NCBI GenBank assembly: GCA_029262065.1 | Contig: JAJDAC010000048.1 | Span: forward strand, 186,001 to 250,000 | Length of the DNA stretch: 64,000 nucleotides | Direction: 5' to 3' | Source: Candidatus Krumholzibacteriota bacterium | Lineage (GTDB): Bacteria; Krumholzibacteriota; Krumholzibacteriia; JAJRXK01 | In this document: positions 4,272 to 21,572 of the stretch, piece after piece | Layout of the letters: every line of letters starts with the position of its first letter | How positions within the stretch are numbered: the stretch's first letter is position 1 | Made by a program: the position numbers and the translations under genes | Notes under the pieces: model-generated | What the model saw: the letters and a program-made list of their open reading frames with translations, nothing else | What the model was told of the DNA's origin: nothing | Database searches by the model: none

Positions 4272-6430
4272 TGAGCGTGAACGCCACCACGCGACGGAGT
4301 CGGTTGTTCGACCTGGTTGCCGCCGCAATGCTGTTGTCCGCGAATCTTCTGCTCACCGGACCACTGCTGGTGTACTGGCAGAACCTGGGCGAACTGACCT
4401 TCGGTTTTTCCGTTCTGGCCCCGTTGTTGGTGCCGGTGTTCCTGCTGGCGGTGGCCTTGTTGGTGGCCGTCGGCTGGTCGCTGCCCACGCGCGCCTATTG
4501 GGTGTTCCAGGGTCTTCTTTTTGCGCTGGCGTTGCTCACGTGGGCGCAGGCCGCCTTCCTGATTCCCAACTACGGCGTTTTCGATGGTCGCGGTCTGGAT
4601 TGGGAATCCGCCGGCTGGCGGGGTCGTCTCGATGTGGCTTTGTGGTTGGTGGTATCGGTTCTATGTCTGCGGTTCGTGCGTCGCGCCCGTCTGGGCCTGC
4701 GGGTAGCCTGCCTGGTGCTTCTGGTGCTGGCACCGGCGGTACCACTGGTGACCGACCTGGCCGGGGACGAACGCTCGTGGTCGGATTTCCACAACGAGCC
4801 CACGTGGACGGACCACGGAATCTTCCAGTATTCCACCAATCAGAACGTGATCCATCTGATTCTCGACAGTTTTCAGACCGATGTGTTCCTGGAGCTGGTG
4901 GAAGAACAGGGCTGGCACGACGAGTTCGATGGTTTCGTGCTGTTCGAGGACAATCTTTCCATCGCTTCGCAAACCTCGTTTGCGGTGCCGGCCATCATGA
5001 GCGGGATTCCGTTTGATGGGAGTGTCACCACCGAACAGTACTACCAGGCCGCCATCGACGAGGGGTCGATCTCCAATGCCCTGGTGGACGCGGGCTACGC
5101 GGTGAACCTCATCACTCATCTGAACATGAAGGAGAGCGCCTACACCGCGTACCTGAAGGCTCCGGTAGAACATGGTATGTCGCAGCGCAAACAGCGCACG
5201 CGCGAGGCTTCGTTCCTGGTGGACGTGGCGCTGTTCCGGTCGGTGCCTCACATGTTGCGCGGTACCATCTACAACGCCGGAAACTGGCAGCTGACGCGCG
5301 TCCTGGTGGAGCCGCCCAGCGTGCGGACGTTCCATCAGAAAGCGTTCCTGCGCGACTACCTCGATCTGATCTCTCCCACCCTCGATCAGCCGGCCTATCA
5401 TTTCATGCATCTGATGCCGCCCCACCCGCCGTATGCCACGTTGGCCGACGGAAGTTTCGCGGGCGAGACCCTGCCGTACACGCGTGAGAATCACGTACAC
5501 GAGGCCCGGGCAATTCTGAAATTGTTCCTGGAATGGTTGGACGAGTTGCGCAAGCGGGGACTCTACGTTTCTTCGCTCATCGTACTGCAGGGCGATCACG
5601 GTACCGATCACGCGCCGGTGTGGAACGGCCAACCGGTGGAACTGCCGGTCGGTAGATCGGCGGGGCTCCTGGCGGTCAAACGGGTCGGGGCCAAGGGAGC
5701 TTTGCAACGCTCGACAGTGGCCACGTCCACGGCCGATGTTGCGGCCACGCTCATGGCCGAACTCGAACTGCCGGCGGCGCCGGGCGTCTCGGTGTTCGAG
5801 CAGACTCTCGAAGGCGCCCAACGTGTACGTCGGTTCTACACCTACGAAGTAGCGTCGGGCGGAGAGGCTTCCCTATCGCGATTCGATGTACGCGGCGACG
5901 TGTTCGACCCCTCCGCCTGGGAGGGGCCGTTCAGCTCCGACATGGTTGCGCTATCTCCTCACTACGAGTGGGGAACGGTTCTGTCGTTTGGTACGGGCGG
6001 CAACGCCGATCCGTACCTCAGGCAGGGTTGGAGCAGCCCCATGAGTCCTGAGTACCGATGGACCAACGGACCGCGCGCCACGCTTCAGTTCGAGGTGGAT
6101 CCGCCCGGCGAATCGGTGGTGGTGCAGCTGGTGTTCGCGCCGTATGTCGATCCAAAGTTGTTGCCCAGGCAACGAATCACCGTGCTGTGCAACGGTCATG
6201 AAGTCACCAAGCACGAGGGCACCGAACACAAGGCTTCCATCATGGTGATGAAGGTGGCCGAGCGGGCGTTTGGGTCGGGCCAGTTGACGTTGGAGTTCGA
6301 TCTACCCGACGCGGCCAGCCCGCGATCCCTTGGTCGCGGTGGTGACGAACGGCAGTTGGGTATTTTCGTGTCGCGCATGGTCATGTTTCCAGAATCGAAA
6401 CCGCCGGTCACCGAAAAGGCCGAGCGTTGA
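4271..6430 (+). CDS. LtaS/sulfatase-superfamily membrane enzyme, copy 2
   Basis: This 719-residue tandem paralogue of the preceding gene is nearly colinear over its whole length, including the five N-terminal helices, LILDSFQTD, SQTSFAVPAIMSG, HLMPPHPPYATLADGSFAG and LQGDHGTDH. The catalytic blocks are almost identical while the membrane region and the C-terminal beta domain differ more. This points to an old duplication with separate substrates or partners rather than a recent one. The ATG overlaps the previous stop by one base. The stop codon is overlapped by the TTG start of the ABC ATPase, so enzyme and importer are probably made together. Confidence 0.75.
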   Translation: MSVNATTRRSRLFDLVAAAMLLSANLLLTGPLLVYWQNLGELTFGFSVLAPLLVPVFLLAVALLVAVGWSLPTRAYWVFQGLLFALALLTWAQAAFLIPNYGVFDGRGLDWESAGWRGRLDVALWLVVSVLCLRFVRRARLGLRVACLVLLVLAPAVPLVTDLAGDERSWSDFHNEPTWTDHGIFQYSTNQNVIHLILDSFQTDVFLELVEEQGWHDEFDGFVLFEDNLSIASQTSFAVPAIMSGIPFDGSVTTEQYYQAAIDEGSISNALVDAGYAVNLITHLNMKESAYTAYLKAPVEHGMSQRKQRTREASFLVDVALFRSVPHMLRGTIYNAGNWQLTRVLVEPPSVRTFHQKAFLRDYLDLISPTLDQPAYHFMHLMPPHPPYATLADGSFAGETLPYTRENHVHEARAILKLFLEWLDELRKRGLYVSSLIVLQGDHGTDHAPVWNGQPVELPVGRSAGLLAVKRVGAKGALQRSTVATSTADVAATLMAELELPAAPGVSVFEQTLEGAQRVRRFYTYEVASGGEASLSRFDVRGDVFDPSAWEGPFSSDMVALSPHYEWGTVLSFGTGGNADPYLRQGWSSPMSPEYRWTNGPRATLQFEVDPPGESVVVQLVFAPYVDPKLLPRQRITVLCNGHEVTKHEGTEHKASIMVMKVAERAFGSGQLTLEFDLPDAASPRSLGRGGDERQLGIFVSRMVMFPESKPPVTEKAER

Positions 6431-8821: not shown

Positions 8822-11068
8822 TCAATAGGCGAGAACCATCTTGCGCGTCAAGCTTGTCTCCTGCGTCTCGAGTGAATAATAGTAGACGCCCGATCCCACC
8901 GGTTTTCCACGGTCGTCCTTGGCGTCCCAATCGACGTGGAAATCACCGGCGGTCACGAACTCATCGTAGAGCAACCGCACGCGGCGGCCGTTCGCATCGA
9001 ACAGGCTTACGCGCACCTGCATATCGCGCGGTATCGACACCAGGATGCGAGTGGATGGGTTGAACGGGTTGGGGAAGTTTTGTCCGAGAGTCGGTCGTTG
9101 CGGCAGGGACGTCGCAAGGCCGGAGTAACGGACGTCGAGGGAGTGGGTCATCGCTTCGTCACCGTTGTCCAGCTCCATGGCGATGTAGTACCGGTACGTC
9201 GTGTCCACGGCCACGTTCTCGTCGAACGCCGAGCCGTGTCCGCCATCCAATTCGTACGGCAACTCCACCAGGGTAGGCGGTTCGTCCCCGGTCGCGCGAA
9301 AGAAGCGCATGGCTCCGACCATCCAGGGTTCGGTAACCCAGTTCAGGTGCACGCCGTGGACTTCCTCGTGCCCCGACGCCTGGGAAAACGCGGCCGGCGC
9401 CGGTTTCGCCAACCCCGTCCCTTCCAGGAGGCGGTTGAACGAGTTGATGCGAACGCCCGCGAACACTTCTTCCCGGTTGCCCGTCCACACCACCTTGACT
9501 TCGTCTATTTCGGAGTGTGGACCCAGCCCGAACTCCTGTTCCAGGCTGTTTTGGCCCATGAAGCCCGATCCGGCCTGGACCTCGCGCATCTGGGTCACGC
9601 CGCCCGCGGTCACGTACACCCGGCAGCCGATGGCGTCGCGATTGCAGCCGGTGCCATCACCGCGCGGACCTTTTCCCTGAAGACGCAACGACACCCAGCT
9701 GTTTCCCATGCGGTCGGTGTCGTTGCGATAGAGCAGAGTATGCCCCTCGGTCATTTCCACGCCAGGGATGGGTGCGGGATCGTAGTACGAGATGTTGGTC
9801 ACGAAGATGTCGACGTCTCCGTCCCGGTCATAGTCGGCGGTGGCCTGCGCCCTTCCGAACTGGGTGTCGGCCACCCCCGCCTCCAGCGTGATGTTGGTGA
9901 ACTTCCAGCCCGACTCCGCTCCGTCGTTGCGCCACAGGCGGTTGGGAATTTCCAGTGGCTGTGGATCCGGTCCACCCTCGACCCATCCGCCCACCATGAA
10001 CAAGTCGAGGTCACCGTCGTTGTCGGCGTCGAACCAATCGGCTCCCCACGAGTTCAGCGGAAACGATACGCGGGCCTCTTGTCCTCGCTCGCGCCAGTTG
10101 TCGGTGCGTTCGGTCCACTGGCCGGGGTTTTCCCATAGTGCGTTGCGACGGAAGTTCGTGACGTACACATCAAGGTCGAGGTCGTTGTCATAGTCGCCAA
10201 TGGCCACACCCATGCCCATGCTCAGTGCGTAGGTTTGGTCGCGCCCGCCCGCGATCTTGGTTTCATTGGCCACTTCCGTGAATGTGTAGCCCGATTCCGC
10301 TCCGTCGTTGCGGAACAGGAAATCGCGCATCAGATCATTCACCACGAAGATGTCCTGGTCGCCGTCGTTGTCGTAGTCGAAGAACATGGGCATGCAGCCG
10401 TAGCCGTGTTCGGGTTCCACGATCTTGCGTGAATTGGCAAACGCGCCACCGCTCAGGTTCTGCAACAACAGATCGCTCGCGAACAGGTAGTTGGCCAGGT
10501 ACACGTCGATGAATCCGTCGTTGTCATAGTCTCCGTAAGCCGCACCCATGCTCAAAGGACCGTCCCAGCTGGAGGGGGCGGTGCCGGGGGGGAAGAACAA
10601 GCCTTGGAGACCAACGGAGCTGGTGACACGGCTGGCGCCGAACCGGTGTCCACGCATGAATTCAGGCTCGGCCAGATGGTTGGCGTAGAACAAGTCGGGG
10701 AACGAGTCGTTGTTCACGTCGGCGGCCACGACACTGTTGACCACCGCGGGAACGCGAACTCCCAGCGCCTCTGACACGTCGGTAAACGTGCCATCGCCGT
10801 TGTTCAGGTAGCAGTGGTTGCCAGGATCCGTCCCGTTGGTGACGATCAGATCGGGCCACCCGTCGTGGTTCATGTCAAGCCACGCGGCACCCTGGCCAAC
10901 CCCATTCTGGAAGGGGTTGCCGCTCATATCCACGTAGCCCAAAGGGTTGTGAACTGAGCGCACTCCCGCCATTAGCGAGAGTTCGGTGAATTTGATCTCA
11001 GCCGATACAACCAGTGGCGAGAGTCCCGTGGCGAGCAGGACAAAAGTCACAACGCTGAGTAAGCGCAC
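8822..11068 (-). CDS. Secreted VCBS/FG-GAP repeat protein with ASPIC/UnbV and FlgD-like C-terminal domains
   Basis: This 748-residue protein begins with a signal peptide (residues about 1-23, ending VVSAEIKF). FG-GAP/VCBS repeats with DYDNDGxxD calcium-binding loops recur across residues about 40-440 and form a seven-blade-like propeller. An ASPIC/UnbV region follows (GCRVYVTAGGVTQMREV...). A fibronectin-like stretch leads to a C-terminal FlgD-like domain that begins LGQNFPNPFNPSTRI and contains the WDAKDDRGKPVGSGVYYY core. This C-terminal type is used as a sorting or anchoring tail in FCB bacteria. Function unknown; probably surface adhesion or glycan/protein binding. It is a paralogue of the gene just upstream (11126-13483). 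Confidence 0.8.
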   Translation of the reverse strand: MRLLSVVTFVLLATGLSPLVVSAEIKFTELSLMAGVRSVHNPLGYVDMSGNPFQNGVGQGAAWLDMNHDGWPDLIVTNGTDPGNHCYLNNGDGTFTDVSEALGVRVPAVVNSVVAADVNNDSFPDLFYANHLAEPEFMRGHRFGASRVTSSVGLQGLFFPPGTAPSSWDGPLSMGAAYGDYDNDGFIDVYLANYLFASDLLLQNLSGGAFANSRKIVEPEHGYGCMPMFFDYDNDGDQDIFVVNDLMRDFLFRNDGAESGYTFTEVANETKIAGGRDQTYALSMGMGVAIGDYDNDLDLDVYVTNFRRNALWENPGQWTERTDNWRERGQEARVSFPLNSWGADWFDADNDGDLDLFMVGGWVEGGPDPQPLEIPNRLWRNDGAESGWKFTNITLEAGVADTQFGRAQATADYDRDGDVDIFVTNISYYDPAPIPGVEMTEGHTLLYRNDTDRMGNSWVSLRLQGKGPRGDGTGCNRDAIGCRVYVTAGGVTQMREVQAGSGFMGQNSLEQEFGLGPHSEIDEVKVVWTGNREEVFAGVRINSFNRLLEGTGLAKPAPAAFSQASGHEEVHGVHLNWVTEPWMVGAMRFFRATGDEPPTLVELPYELDGGHGSAFDENVAVDTTYRYYIAMELDNGDEAMTHSLDVRYSGLATSLPQRPTLGQNFPNPFNPSTRILVSIPRDMQVRVSLFDANGRRVRLLYDEFVTAGDFHVDWDAKDDRGKPVGSGVYYYSLETQETSLTRKMVLAY

Positions 11069-11125
11069 AATATTTCTCCAGTTTTAGTGCCTCTCCCATG
11101 CGCGGACGTGAACTGGCGAGTGTTG

Positions 11126-13483
11126 TCAGCGCAGCAGGTTCAGCTTTCTCGTCGTCGTCTCTTCCTCCGTCTCCAGGGTGTAGAAGTAGATTCCGCTGGC
11201 GACCGAACGGCCTTGGTCGTCGGTGCCATTCCAGACAATGGGGTTCAGGCCGGGCTCGGCCATCCCCTCGTAAAGGGTAGACATCAGTCGTCCCCTGGCG
11301 TCATACAGCTTCAGGCTAACCTGCATGCGGCGGGGCAATTCGAAGCGAATGACGGTGCCGGGGTTGAACGGGTTCGGAAAGTTCTGTTGCAGTACGGGCC
11401 GCCGTGGCGTGCTCGTTTGCGAAGGCTCGTACGTCGCGAATGCGGTCGCGCTGACGGTGCTGTTGCCCTGGGGGCTGAGCAGGACGATTCGGTATCCGTA
11501 GCGCGTTCCCGCCTCGGCGGTGGTATCCACGGCCATCCCTTGGCCGGCGTCCTGGGTGACGTCGATTTCGATCGGTATGAGCTGCGCGTCGTCTTCGAGG
11601 CGGCGGAACACTCTCACGGATTCCACCGGAAAGCTCGGCGCTCCCCACCACTGCAGCTCGATGCCGTCGGTGGTCGACCGGGCGTCGAAGCGGCTGAGAG
11701 CCACGGGCCAGGCAATGGCTTCGCCAGCGCCTTCCACCAGCCGATAGAAACCGTCGATGTTGCATCCGGTGAAGTATTCTTCCACGCCGCCCGTCCACAC
11801 CACGCGAACTTCTTCGATGGTGGATGCCTGCCCCAGGCCGAACTCCACTTCGATACTGTCCATGCCCATGTAGCCGTTGCCGCCCATCACCGAGCGCATC
11901 TGCGTGGCGCCGTCGGCGGTCACGTAGACCTTGCAGCCGATACCGTCGCGATTGGTTCCCACGCCGGTGCCGTCGTCGCGGGGGCCGCCACCCTGCAGTT
12001 GAAACATCACCCAGCGGTGGTCGCTTGGGGTATCGTTGCGGTAGAGCAGCGTGTGCCCCAGCGTGGGCTCGATGCCCGCGCCCGGCGCGGGGTCGAAGTA
12101 CGTGTTGTTGGTCACGACCACGTCGAGGTCGCCGTCCCGGTCGTAGTCGCCCACGGTTATGCCGCGACCGATTTCCCGGTTCACGTTGCCGTCTTCCAGG
12201 CGCTCGGCCCCGGCCACCCCGGCGGCGTCAGAAATATTCGTGTACGTGTAGTCGGGTGCGCCGTCGTTGCGGAAGAACTGGTTGGGCAGGTCGAACGGTT
12301 GCGGCGTGATGCCACTCTCTACGTGCCCGGCCACCACGAACAGATCCAGGTCGCCGTCGTTGTCGGCGTCCATGAAGCTACAGCCCCACGAGTTCCAGTC
12401 GAAGTCCACACCCTTGGCCCCGGCCACTTCGCGAAAGCGGGCAATGGGGTTGGTGGCCCAGTCACCCGGATTCTGGAACAGGGTGTTCAGGCGATAGTTG
12501 GTGATGTAGATGTCTTCGTCCAGGTCGTTGTCGAAGTCACCGATGGTCGTGCCCATGCCCATGACCTTGTTGTCCCAGAACTGCGCGCCGCCCGAGATCT
12601 TCAGCTGCCCCGCCACTTCGGTAAACGCCCAGTTGTTTTCCGGCCCTTCGTTGCGGAACAGGAAGTCAACCATGGTGTCGTTGGCCTGGAAGATGTCCTG
12701 GTCGCCGTCGTTGTCGAAGTCCCAGAAGATGGCCTGGAAGCCAAAGCCTGCGTTGTTCTGATCGATCAGGTCGGTGCGGATGAAGCGCGCGCCGCCCAGA
12801 TTGCGCAGCAGCATGTCGGGGGCAGTCAGCTGATTCACCAGGTACATGTCGACGAATCCGTCGTTGTCGTAGTCGCCGAAGATTCCGCAGGCTCCCTGCG
12901 GTCCGTCCCACTGCTCGGGCGCGGTTCCCGGTGCATAGAACAACTCGCGCAGCCCCAACGCGCCACTGCTGCGGTTCAACGAAAACTGATTGCCGATGGC
13001 AATGTCGGGTTCGGCGAAGTGATTCGTGACCCACAGTTCCGACAGTCCGTTGTTGTCGATGTCGGCGGCGACCACCGAGTTGCTTACCGCGCCCGCGCGC
13101 ACGTCCATGGCGTCGGACACGTCGGTAAACGTGCCGTCGCCGTTGTTCAGGAAGAAGTAGTTGCCCGGCGTAGTGCCGTTGGCCACGACCAGGTCGAGCC
13201 AACCATCGCGGTTGATGTCGACCCAGGTGGCGCCCGGTCCGATGTGATCCTGAAAGGGATTGCCGCCCAGGTCGTAGTAACCCAGCGTGTCGTGCGTGAA
13301 GCGCACGCCGGCGTCTTCAGAAACTTCCGTGAATACGATGGCCGGTTGGGCGGATCCAGGAACGGCAAACATGGAGAGTTGTAGCGCGACAGCCAGAACG
13401 ATGCATGCGCCAACCAAGCCTCGGCGAGCGAAGCCGGACACGGCGACGCGAATCGCGCAGACGGATAGGTGCAAGCAGCTCAC
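11126..13483 (-). CDS. Secreted VCBS/FG-GAP repeat protein with ASPIC/UnbV and FlgD-like C-terminal domains, paralogue
   Basis: This 785-residue protein has the same architecture as 8822-11068: signal peptide (about 1-45, hydrophobic run GACIVLAVALQLSMFAV then GSAQ), many D-x-D-x-DG loops in VCBS repeats, ASPIC/UnbV block (GCKVYVTADGATQMRSV) and FlgD-like tail starting LQQNFPNPFNPGTVIRFEL. The two proteins align along most of their length and sit head to tail 57 bases apart, so they arose by tandem duplication and are probably co-transcribed. The long opposite-strand frames across both genes are shadows caused by the repeated GC-rich DxDxDG codons. Confidence 0.8.
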   Translation of the reverse strand: MSCLHLSVCAIRVAVSGFARRGLVGACIVLAVALQLSMFAVPGSAQPAIVFTEVSEDAGVRFTHDTLGYYDLGGNPFQDHIGPGATWVDINRDGWLDLVVANGTTPGNYFFLNNGDGTFTDVSDAMDVRAGAVSNSVVAADIDNNGLSELWVTNHFAEPDIAIGNQFSLNRSSGALGLRELFYAPGTAPEQWDGPQGACGIFGDYDNDGFVDMYLVNQLTAPDMLLRNLGGARFIRTDLIDQNNAGFGFQAIFWDFDNDGDQDIFQANDTMVDFLFRNEGPENNWAFTEVAGQLKISGGAQFWDNKVMGMGTTIGDFDNDLDEDIYITNYRLNTLFQNPGDWATNPIARFREVAGAKGVDFDWNSWGCSFMDADNDGDLDLFVVAGHVESGITPQPFDLPNQFFRNDGAPDYTYTNISDAAGVAGAERLEDGNVNREIGRGITVGDYDRDGDLDVVVTNNTYFDPAPGAGIEPTLGHTLLYRNDTPSDHRWVMFQLQGGGPRDDGTGVGTNRDGIGCKVYVTADGATQMRSVMGGNGYMGMDSIEVEFGLGQASTIEEVRVVWTGGVEEYFTGCNIDGFYRLVEGAGEAIAWPVALSRFDARSTTDGIELQWWGAPSFPVESVRVFRRLEDDAQLIPIEIDVTQDAGQGMAVDTTAEAGTRYGYRIVLLSPQGNSTVSATAFATYEPSQTSTPRRPVLQQNFPNPFNPGTVIRFELPRRMQVSLKLYDARGRLMSTLYEGMAEPGLNPIVWNGTDDQGRSVASGIYFYTLETEEETTTRKLNLLR

Positions 13484-17031: not shown

Positions 17032-17787
17032 CTAGAAGCCCTTCACCGTCTTCGATTTCTCGTACAACATTCGAACCACGAGCCAACCTACCAGGACCAC
17101 GATGGACAGATAGTATGGCTTCGCCGCCCACGTGGCGTGCTGGCTGATCATGGCGAAGACCAGCGGAACCGACATGTAGGTGTTGTGCTTGCTACGCATG
17201 CCCGCCAACGCGGCCAGGTCACCGTCGGGCGCCTGTCCATGTTTGATGGCCGTGATGATCTGCTGCTGCGCGGGCCAGATGCGATACCACACGTTGAAGG
17301 CCATGGCCGATCCGAACATGGCGCCCAGGTGGATGGTGTAGCCACGGAAGCTGAATCCGGCCCACATGTCGAACAGGTAGACCGCGCTACTGGCGAGGAT
17401 CCACATGACGATGAAGCCGGCATTGGCCTGAGATTTCAGAACGCTCTTGTAAAGGGCGTCGTAGATGAACACACCCAGGAAGGTGAGTGCGATGGCGACG
17501 TACGCGGCGACGTTCCAGCCACCCTCTTCGAACACGATACCCGAGTGGTAGTACACCAGCACCAGCAGCACCGCGCCCGTGATCCAGGTGTACGCGGCAC
17601 CCCAACGAAACCAGTACAACGTGCGTGGCAATAGTTCGGGAACGACTTTCTTCTTGGTGTCAGCATCCATGGTGGCAGCGAAGGCGCCGTTCACCCAGTT
17701 GAAGAAATACAGGAGTCCGATCCACAGGATGCCCGCCACGACGTGCACCCAACGAAAAAGGGACTCGACCAGATTCATCGTATCCAT
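17032..17787 (-). CDS. PuuD-like (urate hydroxylase family) membrane protein
   Basis: A 251-residue integral membrane protein with seven to eight helices, starting MDTMNLVESLFRWVHVVAGILWIGLLYFFN. This matches the membrane domain of the PuuD/DUF989 family, including the histidine in WVHVVAG and the FNW motif. True PuuD urate oxidases carry an additional C-terminal cytochrome c domain; it is missing here and no purine-degradation genes are nearby. The name therefore describes homology, not proven urate oxidation. The start at 17787 is supported by GGAGAGGG 8 bases upstream. A bidirectional terminator follows the stop. Confidence 0.7.
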   Translation of the reverse strand: MDTMNLVESLFRWVHVVAGILWIGLLYFFNWVNGAFAATMDADTKKKVVPELLPRTLYWFRWGAAYTWITGAVLLVLVYYHSGIVFEEGGWNVAAYVAIALTFLGVFIYDALYKSVLKSQANAGFIVMWILASSAVYLFDMWAGFSFRGYTIHLGAMFGSAMAFNVWYRIWPAQQQIITAIKHGQAPDGDLAALAGMRSKHNTYMSVPLVFAMISQHATWAAKPYYLSIVVLVGWLVVRMLYEKSKTVKGF

Positions 17788-17909
17788 AAATGAAACCCTC
17801 TCCGGAGTTTGTGCCTGGGGGGGCGGCCGTTGCATGGGGCCGGCCCGGCGACGGTTGGCACATTAGGCGCAAGTTGGTGGTTTGGCCAACCTCAAGTGGG
17901 GGGCCGCTT

Positions 17910-18031
17910 GGGCTTGGGGGACATCGGCGCGCTTGTCCTCGGCCTGGCCTGGCTGGGGGTGGGGAGTTGTCATGGGGTTGGGTGGGGGCCGGGCCGGCCT
18001 GCGGGAAAGCGCGCCGAGGTCCCCCAAGCCC
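17910..18031. repeat. Long hairpin A (24-bp arms)
   Basis: The arms 17910-17933 and 18008-18031 are complementary at 23 of 24 positions and enclose a 74-base loop. The loop, read on the plus strand, is similar (about 70 percent by eye) to the loop of hairpin B read on the minus strand. Shared blocks are GTCCTCG, CCTGGC, GAGTTGTC, GGCCGG and TGCGG. The arm sequences of A and B differ strongly, yet both pair almost perfectly. Confidence 0.85.
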
Positions 18032-18119
18032 TTCGCTCTATTGAGGCGGGTCTTGAGGTGGGTTGGTCTGGCCGGGGTTCGCGTTGGGCGGAGGCGGGTG
18101 GGGTGCTGGTTATGACGGG

Positions 18120-18322
18120 CTGGATTTGGGCCGCACGAGTTCGTTAGAAGCGCGGCCTCAGCCCGCTGCGGGCACCGGGTGGGTGTGCGAACACGGGTGC
18201 GAAGAACGTGGGAGAAGCTGCACGCGGAACGAAAGAGCCAGCGGGTCTCCCCGCCGAGCCCCTCGAGGCCCCCGCAGCGGCTGAAGTCGCGCTTCTAACG
18301 AACTCGTGCGGCCCAAATCCAG
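18120..18322. repeat. Central inverted pair with 35-bp perfect arms
   Basis: Bases 18120-18154 and 18288-18322 are perfect reverse complements over 35 bases, beginning CTGGATTTGGGCCGCACGAG on the left arm. Similarity continues inward for about 18 more bases with two substitutions and one indel (the CAGCC(C)GCTGCGGG part). The centre is unique. The inner part resembles REP-type sequences in many GC-rich genomes. Confidence 0.9.
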
Positions 18323-18410
18323 CCGCAAAGCCCAGGCACCCAGGCCGATCTCAAACGTCGAAAACCGAAACCAGGGGTTATCTACTCAAACAGCGACACG
18401 AGCAAAGCGA

Positions 18411-18532
18411 GGGGATCGAGTGATCCCGGGGCGTGTATCCGCAGCCGGCCGGCCGCCAGACACGCTCCAAGACAACTCAACCTACCCGGCCGAGCCAGGC
18501 GAGGACACACGCCCCGGGATCACTCGATCCCC
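18411..18532. repeat. Long hairpin B (26-bp perfect arms)
   Basis: The arms 18411-18436 and 18507-18532 are perfectly complementary over 26 bases (GGGGATCGAGTGATCCCGGG start on the left arm) around a 70-base loop. The whole unit is the inverted, diverged counterpart of hairpin A, has the same 122-base length, and ends 20 bases before the ferredoxin stop codon. Confidence 0.9.
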
Positions 18533-18552
18533 CGCGGCCCACCCCCCGAAAC

Positions 18553-18813
18553 TCACGTCCCATCATCCCCAATAGCCTCAACCGGACACTCATCCAAAGC
18601 CTCAACACACTGCTTCCGCTCTTCCTCGGTCTCCGGCTGGCGAATCACGAAGGAGTACCCTTCGGCATCGTTGCGATCGAAGTTGGAGGGCGCCGTTTGG
18701 CGGCACAGGTCGCAATCGATGCATTGCGCATCGACATAGAATTCGCCAATCGCATTGTCGGCGAGCTTTTCGGTCACTTCGGCCAAAGGTGGCTCCAGAC
18801 TGGTAAACGACAT
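18553..18813 (-). CDS. Single-cluster ferredoxin
   Basis: An 86-residue soluble electron carrier with one iron-sulfur site. The first three ligands lie in CIDCDLC (CxxCxxC, about residues 31-37) and the fourth in DECPVEAIG near the C-terminus. This is the Fer4_13/15-type pattern for one [4Fe-4S] (or [3Fe-4S]) cluster. It is acidic, as usual for ferredoxins. Transcribed away from the thioredoxin lipoprotein gene, with a 205-base divergent region between them. The partner is unknown. Confidence 0.88.
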   Translation of the reverse strand: MSFTSLEPPLAEVTEKLADNAIGEFYVDAQCIDCDLCRQTAPSNFDRNDAEGYSFVIRQPETEEERKQCVEALDECPVEAIGDDGT

Positions 18814-19991: not shown

Positions 19992-21572
19992 CTACTGACG
20001 TCGCAACAACATCAGGGTCACGTCGTCCGACGGGGGTTCTCCCTCCAGGAAGTCATTGACCGCGGTGATGATGCGCCCGCTCACTTCGGCCAGGTCCCCG
20101 GTCTGATATTCCTTCAGGATTTCGAGCATGGGTTCGACCTCCAGCATTTCATCGCCGTCGCGGGTGGCTTCCACGATGCCATCGCTGTAGATGGTCAACA
20201 GGTCCCCCGGATCGATCTGCGCGTACAACTTTTCTATGGTGAAGCGGTCGATCATCGCGATGGGTAGACCCGACGCGGGAAGCTCTTCGACGTCGCCGTT
20301 GGCTCGCACCAGAATGGGCGGGTTGTGGCCCGCATTGATGTACTCGATCGCGCCGGTGGCCGGATCCAGCTCAGCCAGGAACAGCGTAATGAACTGCTCG
20401 GCGGCCAGACTCTCGAATAGCTGGTGATGTAGCTGGCGGGCGAACACCAACAGGTCGGGGGCCAGATCCGACAGAGTGCGCAGCAACACCATGCACGCGC
20501 TCATGGCCAGTGCCGCGGGCATGCCCTTGCCGGCCACGTCGCCCAGGGCGATCAGCAGGTTGCCGTTGGGGCGATGAAGCACGTGGTACAGGTCGCCGCC
20601 CACCGCGCGACACATGACCTGGTGCGCGTGGATCTGATAGCCCTCGGCCATGTCCAGGTGTTCAGGAATCAGTTGCTGCTGAATACGGGCCGCGGCCTGT
20701 ACCTCGCCCTCCAGCGTGAGGTTGCGCAGCTTCACGGCCACCGCGTTGGCGGTGGCGGTAATTACCTGCAGGTCTTCGGCCGAGAACTGCACGCGGGGGT
20801 CGGCCGAGTCGATATACAGAATGCCTCGCACCCGCTCGTTGTCGAACAGCGGCGCGGCCATGGCCGACCGCAGGTCCAGCGCCACGATGCTCTCGTTGCC
20901 GCTGAAATTGGGATCATTCAGCACGTTGGCCACCAGGACCGATTCGCGCCCTTTCAGCACCTGATTCAGAATGGACGTGCTCAAACGCAGGCCACCGGTG
21001 CCTTGATCGTTGCGGCTCCAGTCGGCCTTTACCCGTACCTGGGTTCCTTCGCCGTCGTCTTCCAGCAGTACCACGCGGTCGGCGGGCACCAGGTTCGACA
21101 CGAAGTCGCAAGCGGCCGCCTCTACGCCCGTGGCGTCCGAAGCCGACGCCAGCAATTCGAACAGGCCCGACAGCATGCCCATGATGCGCTTGCGGGCTTC
21201 TTCGGAGAACGCCTCGCCGTGCCGGTATGAGATTTCGGAGTTGAGGTCTTCACTCGAGACCAGGGACGAAACATCGCTGTCGGCCTCGTCGGCGCGCCGA
21301 AGGCCCACACCCGCGAAATACACGGTGGAGCCGGGACGAACCTCGACTTCTTCCGAGTTCACGACCACGCCGTCGACGTTGGTGCCGTTGGTACTACCCA
21401 GGTCGCGCACGAACAGCTGGTCGCCGTCGACGCGAAGCACTGCGTGGTGCTTGCTGACGCTGGAAACGGAGATCTGAACCGCGGAATCGGCGGCCCGCCC
21501 GACGGAATGGTCACCGTCGGCCAGGTCGAGCTGGCTCGTTTGTCCTTGGGAATTCAGTTCGAACATGGGCAT
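19992..21572 (-). CDS. FHA-GAF-SpoIIE (PP2C) phosphatase regulator
   Basis: A 526-residue signalling protein with three domains. The FHA domain (about 1-95) carries the phosphopeptide-binding set GRAADS, SKHHA and STNGT. A GAF-type sensor (about 145-285) is followed by a SpoIIE/RsbU-class PP2C phosphatase (about 300-525) with GDVAGKG, INAGHNPP and YSDGIVEA metal-binding motifs. RsbU-type enzymes dephosphorylate STAS anti-sigma antagonists; a STAS protein is encoded at 61672. The FHA domain suggests recruitment to threonine-phosphorylated partners, and a Ser/Thr kinase is encoded at 59224. Both links are inference. Monocistronic, divergent from ccmH. Confidence 0.85.
   Translation of the reverse strand: MPMFELNSQGQTSQLDLADGDHSVGRAADSAVQISVSSVSKHHAVLRVDGDQLFVRDLGSTNGTNVDGVVVNSEEVEVRPGSTVYFAGVGLRRADEADSDVSSLVSSEDLNSEISYRHGEAFSEEARKRIMGMLSGLFELLASASDATGVEAAACDFVSNLVPADRVVLLEDDGEGTQVRVKADWSRNDQGTGGLRLSTSILNQVLKGRESVLVANVLNDPNFSGNESIVALDLRSAMAAPLFDNERVRGILYIDSADPRVQFSAEDLQVITATANAVAVKLRNLTLEGEVQAAARIQQQLIPEHLDMAEGYQIHAHQVMCRAVGGDLYHVLHRPNGNLLIALGDVAGKGMPAALAMSACMVLLRTLSDLAPDLLVFARQLHHQLFESLAAEQFITLFLAELDPATGAIEYINAGHNPPILVRANGDVEELPASGLPIAMIDRFTIEKLYAQIDPGDLLTIYSDGIVEATRDGDEMLEVEPMLEILKEYQTGDLAEVSGRIITAVNDFLEGEPPSDDVTLMLLRRQ

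Follow-up and report, generated by a model that had tools for sequence, protein, structure and literature searches.

A stretch of 64,000 nucleotides from a Candidatus Krumholzibacteriota bacterium (hereafter the window) carries, between a membrane-protein gene and a ferredoxin gene, two similar hairpins in opposite orientation with a further palindrome between them. An earlier note on this DNA proposed a structured RNA and a mobile palindromic element among the possible explanations. We asked what kind of element the region is, whether it has relatives, and what keeps its arms complementary.

The hairpins of the window

The features of the region are listed below; the three hairpin types and the covariance models R2 and R3 are described in the following section.

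17032 to 17787, minus strand: flanking gene outside the element, a membrane protein with a Urate_ox_N domain (Pfam PF06181, E 2.7e-42)
17852 to 18584, no strand: whole imperfect palindrome holding three hairpins, its left half aligned with the reverse complement of its right half
17896 to 18046, plus strand: hairpin A, type I, derived; stem 17910-17934 / 18007-18031 from the inverted-repeat scan; R2 E 2.3e-18 (training sequence)
18118 to 18324, no strand: central hairpin, 46-nt arms 18118-18163 / 18279-18324, 96% complementary, with a 115-nt loop; contains the "35-bp box"
18397 to 18545, minus strand: hairpin B, type I, derived; stem 18411-18440 / 18503-18532; R2 E 1.4e-17 (training sequence)
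18553 to 18813, minus strand: flanking gene outside the element, a ferredoxin (Pfam PF13370, E 2.6e-21)

The order within 17852-18584 is A on the plus strand, the central palindrome with its 46-bp arms, and B on the minus strand, with A and B each 86 nt away from the central element. The two outer hairpins were recovered at the coordinates given earlier, 17910-18031 (outer arm 25 nt) and 18411-18532 (outer arm 30 nt), at 122 nt each. A, B, and the central hairpin were the only inverted repeats scoring at least 20 in the 64-kb window, where Markov shuffles reached a maximum of 15, and the minus-strand fold of the region lay 16 standard deviations below its shuffles (20 shuffles). Hairpin A aligned with the reverse complement of B at a global score of 76 (maximum 42 among 2000 shuffles) and with same-strand B at a score of 1; the two hairpins are homologous and inverted relative to each other.

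The 24 stem pairs shared by A and B included 15 identical pairs, 9 altered on both sides, and none altered on one side only. The arms had been described as differing in roughly half of their bases while still pairing; the pairing is kept, but the difference amounts to about 38% of the shared pairs (9 of 24). The internal loops of A and B are now largely paired, and both are therefore regarded as derived copies. What had been taken for a separate 35-bp box between the hairpins turned out to be the stretch over which the two 46-nt arms of the central hairpin match perfectly. Each of these arms can be aligned with the 5' half of the C33 hairpin of the same genome, and the central palindrome may, tentatively, consist of two 5' half-cores that meet head to head, a likeness that is suggestive only.

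The stop codon of the ferredoxin gene lies about 20 nt from hairpin B. The Urate_ox_N gene was also located in genomes G008 and G004, with surroundings different from those of the window site. Elsewhere in the window, the minus strand encodes two adjacent long proteins that, by eye, carry FG-GAP-like repeats and a C-terminal FNPFNP-type sorting segment (8822-13483), and one protein joining FHA, GAF, and SpoIIE phosphatase domains (19995-21572).

Copies, core, and genomic placement

Approximately 1.1 Mb of the source genome was scanned for inverted repeats in the same way as the window and contained no further hairpin cluster apart from one pair at C8, which makes hairpins of this kind rare there. 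The C8 pair has the inner motif common to A and B on different stems. At the DNA level, a search with the whole region identified no homologue in 80 genomes of the class, plasmids, or phages, and structure models were thus needed. A first covariance model built from A and B found more hairpins, and eight aligned hairpins then gave model R2, which identified 16 hairpins at nine loci in the source genome (E 7e-25 to 0.0013), with eight of these being training sequences that match by construction and the other eight new. A type II hairpin at C28, added by inspection, brought the total to 17. The region is thus not a single local duplication without other copies, the outcome that the earlier note had named as counting against it. 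Near-identical recent copies were not seen at separate sites of the source genome.

Inverted pairs of constant polarity, the left hairpin on the plus strand and the right on the minus strand, were present at eight of the nine loci. The spacers between paired hairpins vary and are not conserved, and they lend no support to transposition of the pair as one unit. The exception, C35 (L133, 4751-5031), is a nested palindrome in which a type III hairpin lies within an outer palindrome; the 3' arm of the latter is the 5' core half in reverse complement. Each hairpin consists of a conserved imperfect core and a long stem, the sequence of which varies between copies with its pairing kept; hairpins measure about 100-190 nt across the family, the two window copies being roughly 150 bases long. 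The core reads 5' CTAGTCC-T-CGC ... GC-T-GCGGAAAC 3' in typical copies of the source genome and GCTCRRACAGTCC-T-CGCG ... CGC-T-GCGGAACTCGC elsewhere. Three variants have the common core C-TARN-C / G-AANC-G:

Type I: CGCTAGTCCTCGC...GCTGCGGAAACGCTC
Type II: GCGCTAAGCCGCAC...TTTGCGGAACCGCGC
Type III: TCACTAAGCTTCGC...GGCTGCAGAATCGTTC

A core-pattern search with one genome per species returned 57 stretches, and in many of them 10-28 bases pair without interruption beyond the core. Carriers by this pattern included CP070677 (titled Latescibacterota), Coriobacteriaceae (about 14 copies in one genome), Eisenbacteria, Krumholzibacteriota, Gemmatimonadetes, Myxococcales, Bdellovibrio, Oligoflexia, and Omnitrophota; a few matches (e.g., those in Rhizobium and Micrococcales) lack a convincing stem. 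The strict type I core had no match in the 84,980 genomes in which it was searched. The core was not found in viral contigs. In the DNA-level searches, a 17-mer match to a viral contig fell within what looks like a phage coding sequence and was put down to chance. Three loci of Coriobacteriaceae and Olsenella (L200, L210, and L212) have shorter members of about 87-90 nt, inverted beside a longer or equal one.

Model R3, built without sequences from the source genome, matched hairpin B (18403-18538, E 4.8e-5) and the C8 (2.3e-6) and C33 (2.4e-5) hairpins in that genome. Its further matches were hairpins of Coriobacteriaceae, Gemmatimonadetes, Myxococcales, Bdellovibrio, Omnitrophota, and Eisenbacteria, so that one model connects the window with a wider family. 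The distribution in the class is patchy, with carriers accounting for 15 of 80 genomes in a set that includes members titled Krumholzibacteriota and Latescibacterota. Genome G015 had 30 matches (a few being the same hairpin on the other strand), G012 had 25, G037 had 10, and G022 had none; G015 and G022 are of the same genus and would suit a study of when copies were gained or lost. At two possible orthologous loci (L187 and L175), similarity is confined to the hairpin, making them unusable for timing compensation.

All nine loci of the source genome are intergenic, four of them between convergent genes and none, where both neighbours are known, between divergent genes. Among foreign copies with both neighbours called by a simple gene caller, 14 were convergent, 19 co-directional, and 3 divergent. 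At clpX-lon, the distance from the ClpX stop codon to the Lon motif is 589 nt in the source genome versus 68-268 nt in ten relatives, a comparison of one locus with relatives at family level or beyond, and the gap (L130, G000:C33:71500-81500, about 4771-5300) is filled by two hairpins of different types. This pair was inserted or grew there and, by the difference in length, behaves as an insertion. Part of the type III hairpin at clpX-lon is repeated in tandem. No direct repeat longer than 5 nt that could be a target-site duplication was identified at the outer ends of seven pairs, the true ends of which are known only approximately. In G037 (C45; L144 and L236), family hairpins flank the L21/L27 genes, with two tandem copies downstream; an autonomous unit made of a gene between two hairpins was considered there and rejected, as the enclosed genes encode, by eye, ribosomal proteins L21 and L27.

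The region thus pairs two large extragenic hairpin-forming repeats, inverted relative to each other, around a third palindrome, and we consider it probable that it is a palindromic insertion element. Of the options raised at the outset, a mobile palindromic element of the REP/MITE type fits best, given copies at nine loci, intergenic placement, and the clpX-lon insertion. Against it, the analysis identified neither a cognate transposase nor a gene family particular to the copies, and saw no target-site duplication and no recent near-identical copies at separate sites of the source genome.

Covariation and alternative explanations

In the eight-sequence alignment (A3), 24 of 37 pairs had two-sided changes and 90% of the cells pair, with none of 500 shuffles matching any measure. 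The independent alignment A4, comprising 17 hairpins (15 from chromosome CP070677 and 2 from other class members), had two-sided changes in 17 of 33 pairs, again with none of 500 shuffles comparable. Slid versions of the alignments also fell far below the real covariation, and the shuffle controls leave relatedness in. The proposal that structure is conserved above stem sequence therefore extends to further copies, in which significant covarying pairs were found, contrary to the absence of covariation that would have spoken against it. The paired changes had also been read as the mark of selection. Structure is indeed kept, but selection is not proven, since both paired changes can arise in one step by template switching from one hairpin arm to the other (PMC8794818); the changes may come from selection, template switching, or both.

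The strong covariation would also be expected of a structured RNA at gene 3' ends, formed by transcripts running into the hairpins and serving as an mRNA stabiliser, a processing site, or a regulator, and the position of the hairpins, mostly next to the 3' ends of genes and seldom between divergent ones, agrees with it. Mismatches divide the evidence. The arms of the source genome have G.U and A.C mismatches at 22:19, without preference, which speaks against selection on a core-strand RNA. In 50 foreign hairpins, A.C exceeded G.U at 53:21, equivalent to a G.U preference on the opposite strand; these counts are not independent, many being one position common to the CP070677 copies, and the excess persists elsewhere, leaving room for an RNA role on the other strand. 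However, two-sided changes far exceed one-sided changes, hairpin A of the window is antisense to, and upstream of, a gene, and an RNA would not account for the constant inverted pairing. Rfam, searched at a permissive E value with the window region and 17 loci, returned only tRNAs at gathering score and weak miRNA and sRNA matches far below it. With no clear support from these data for the structured RNA that the earlier note had allowed for, we regard this explanation as unlikely.

Still less probable, in our judgement, is that the hairpins are ancient palindromes with no function of their own, the arms of which stay complementary mainly via template switching at stalled replication (quasipalindrome correction). 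The absence of one-sided changes between A and B, the conversion of their internal loops to paired bases, and the outer C35 palindrome, made of the core of one arm and its reverse complement, are all in keeping with this mechanism, which is documented (PMC8794818). It explains neither the dispersal to many loci nor a cross-phylum core whose mismatches are fixed, since template switching would be expected to remove them; with mismatches conserved across phyla, template switching does not suffice by itself. Bidirectional intrinsic transcription terminators between genes are very improbable, for although the hairpins lie near stop codons and often between convergent genes, T-runs of at least 5 come after the stem in just 3 of the 58 hairpins and A-runs of that length before it in none, the stems and loops are far longer than in usual terminators, and the conserved core would go unexplained.

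Relation to known repeats and possible mobilisation

The palindromic insertion element favoured here has its closest parallels among small extragenic repeats. REP, BIME, and REPIN sequences are short, tagged, extragenic imperfect palindromes, often arranged as inverted homo- or hetero-dimers with variable spacers, and lie mostly downstream of genes, between convergent or co-directional genes (PMC3733652). The present family is likewise dispersed and extragenic, with inverted pairs (8/9 loci) and a bias to gene 3' ends (14/19/3). In contrast to REPs of 20-40 bp, its hairpins are about 100-190 nt and about four times longer than REP/BIME dimers, and the conserved core lies inside the stem, unlike the GTAG end tag; aligned heads read GGTGGGCCGG-like, with GTAG in 1 of 8. 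Unlike for RAYT-associated REPs, no Y1/RAYT partner was found for it: RAYT (Y1_Tnp, PF01797) was absent from the source genome, with five control genomes positive, and from 11 of 12 relatives, including the richest carrier, G015. RAYT was accordingly rejected as the mobiliser for the source genome and G015, and the element, departing from REPs in size, tag, and transposase, was not filed among them.

CGTC-tagged REPs are repeated palindromes present in several phyla without a dedicated transposase (PMC3733652). The family resembles them in both respects, no dedicated transposase having been found, but these REPs are small with a CGTC end tag, and alignments A2-A4 have neither that tag nor that size. 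TIRtrons are RAYT-like genes flanked by long inverted repeats with a GGGGWSAS motif (PMC3733652). Like those repeats, the hairpins are long, partly self-complementary, and arranged as dimers, and the stem of hairpin D (C8; L087 6880-7024) begins GGGGACAG, which fits GGGGWSAS; however, most copies are without this motif, and no tyrosine transposase was found in the source genome. By eye, the conserved core is unlike the RYYYAAC/GTTRRRY of integron attC sites. MITEs such as ERIC or Correia/NEMIS are intergenic palindromic repeats of about 100-160 bp. The family is similar to them in length, intergenic position, and palindromic form, whereas MITEs are conserved in sequence throughout and the stems here vary with pairing kept. 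PMC2229807 reviews small mobile sequences. No published description of the family was found, and the papers listed in a literature search with the motif string were unrelated.

An all-against-all comparison of hairpin-adjacent genes identified no specific family common to the copies, only widespread families and small clusters. The element would be non-autonomous and mobile, spreading to places downstream of genes where it is tolerated. The fixed imperfections of the conserved core suggest that it may be recognised as folded single-stranded DNA or as a cruciform, and either selection for the fold or template-switch copying between the arms, or the two together, could keep the arms complementary. 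We tentatively raise the possibility that large hairpin DNA elements of this kind make up a class spanning phyla, with a conserved imperfect core, a varying but always paired stem, and a putative enzyme recognising folded single-stranded DNA.

A core common to Krumholzibacteriota, Coriobacteriaceae, Gemmatimonadetes, Myxococcales, and Bdellovibrio, present up to about 30 times in a genome, would be expected to have a binding partner that is conserved as well, and the core motif offers a direct handle for finding it. The family also provides a clean test case for distinguishing selection on the fold from template-switch homogenisation of the arms.
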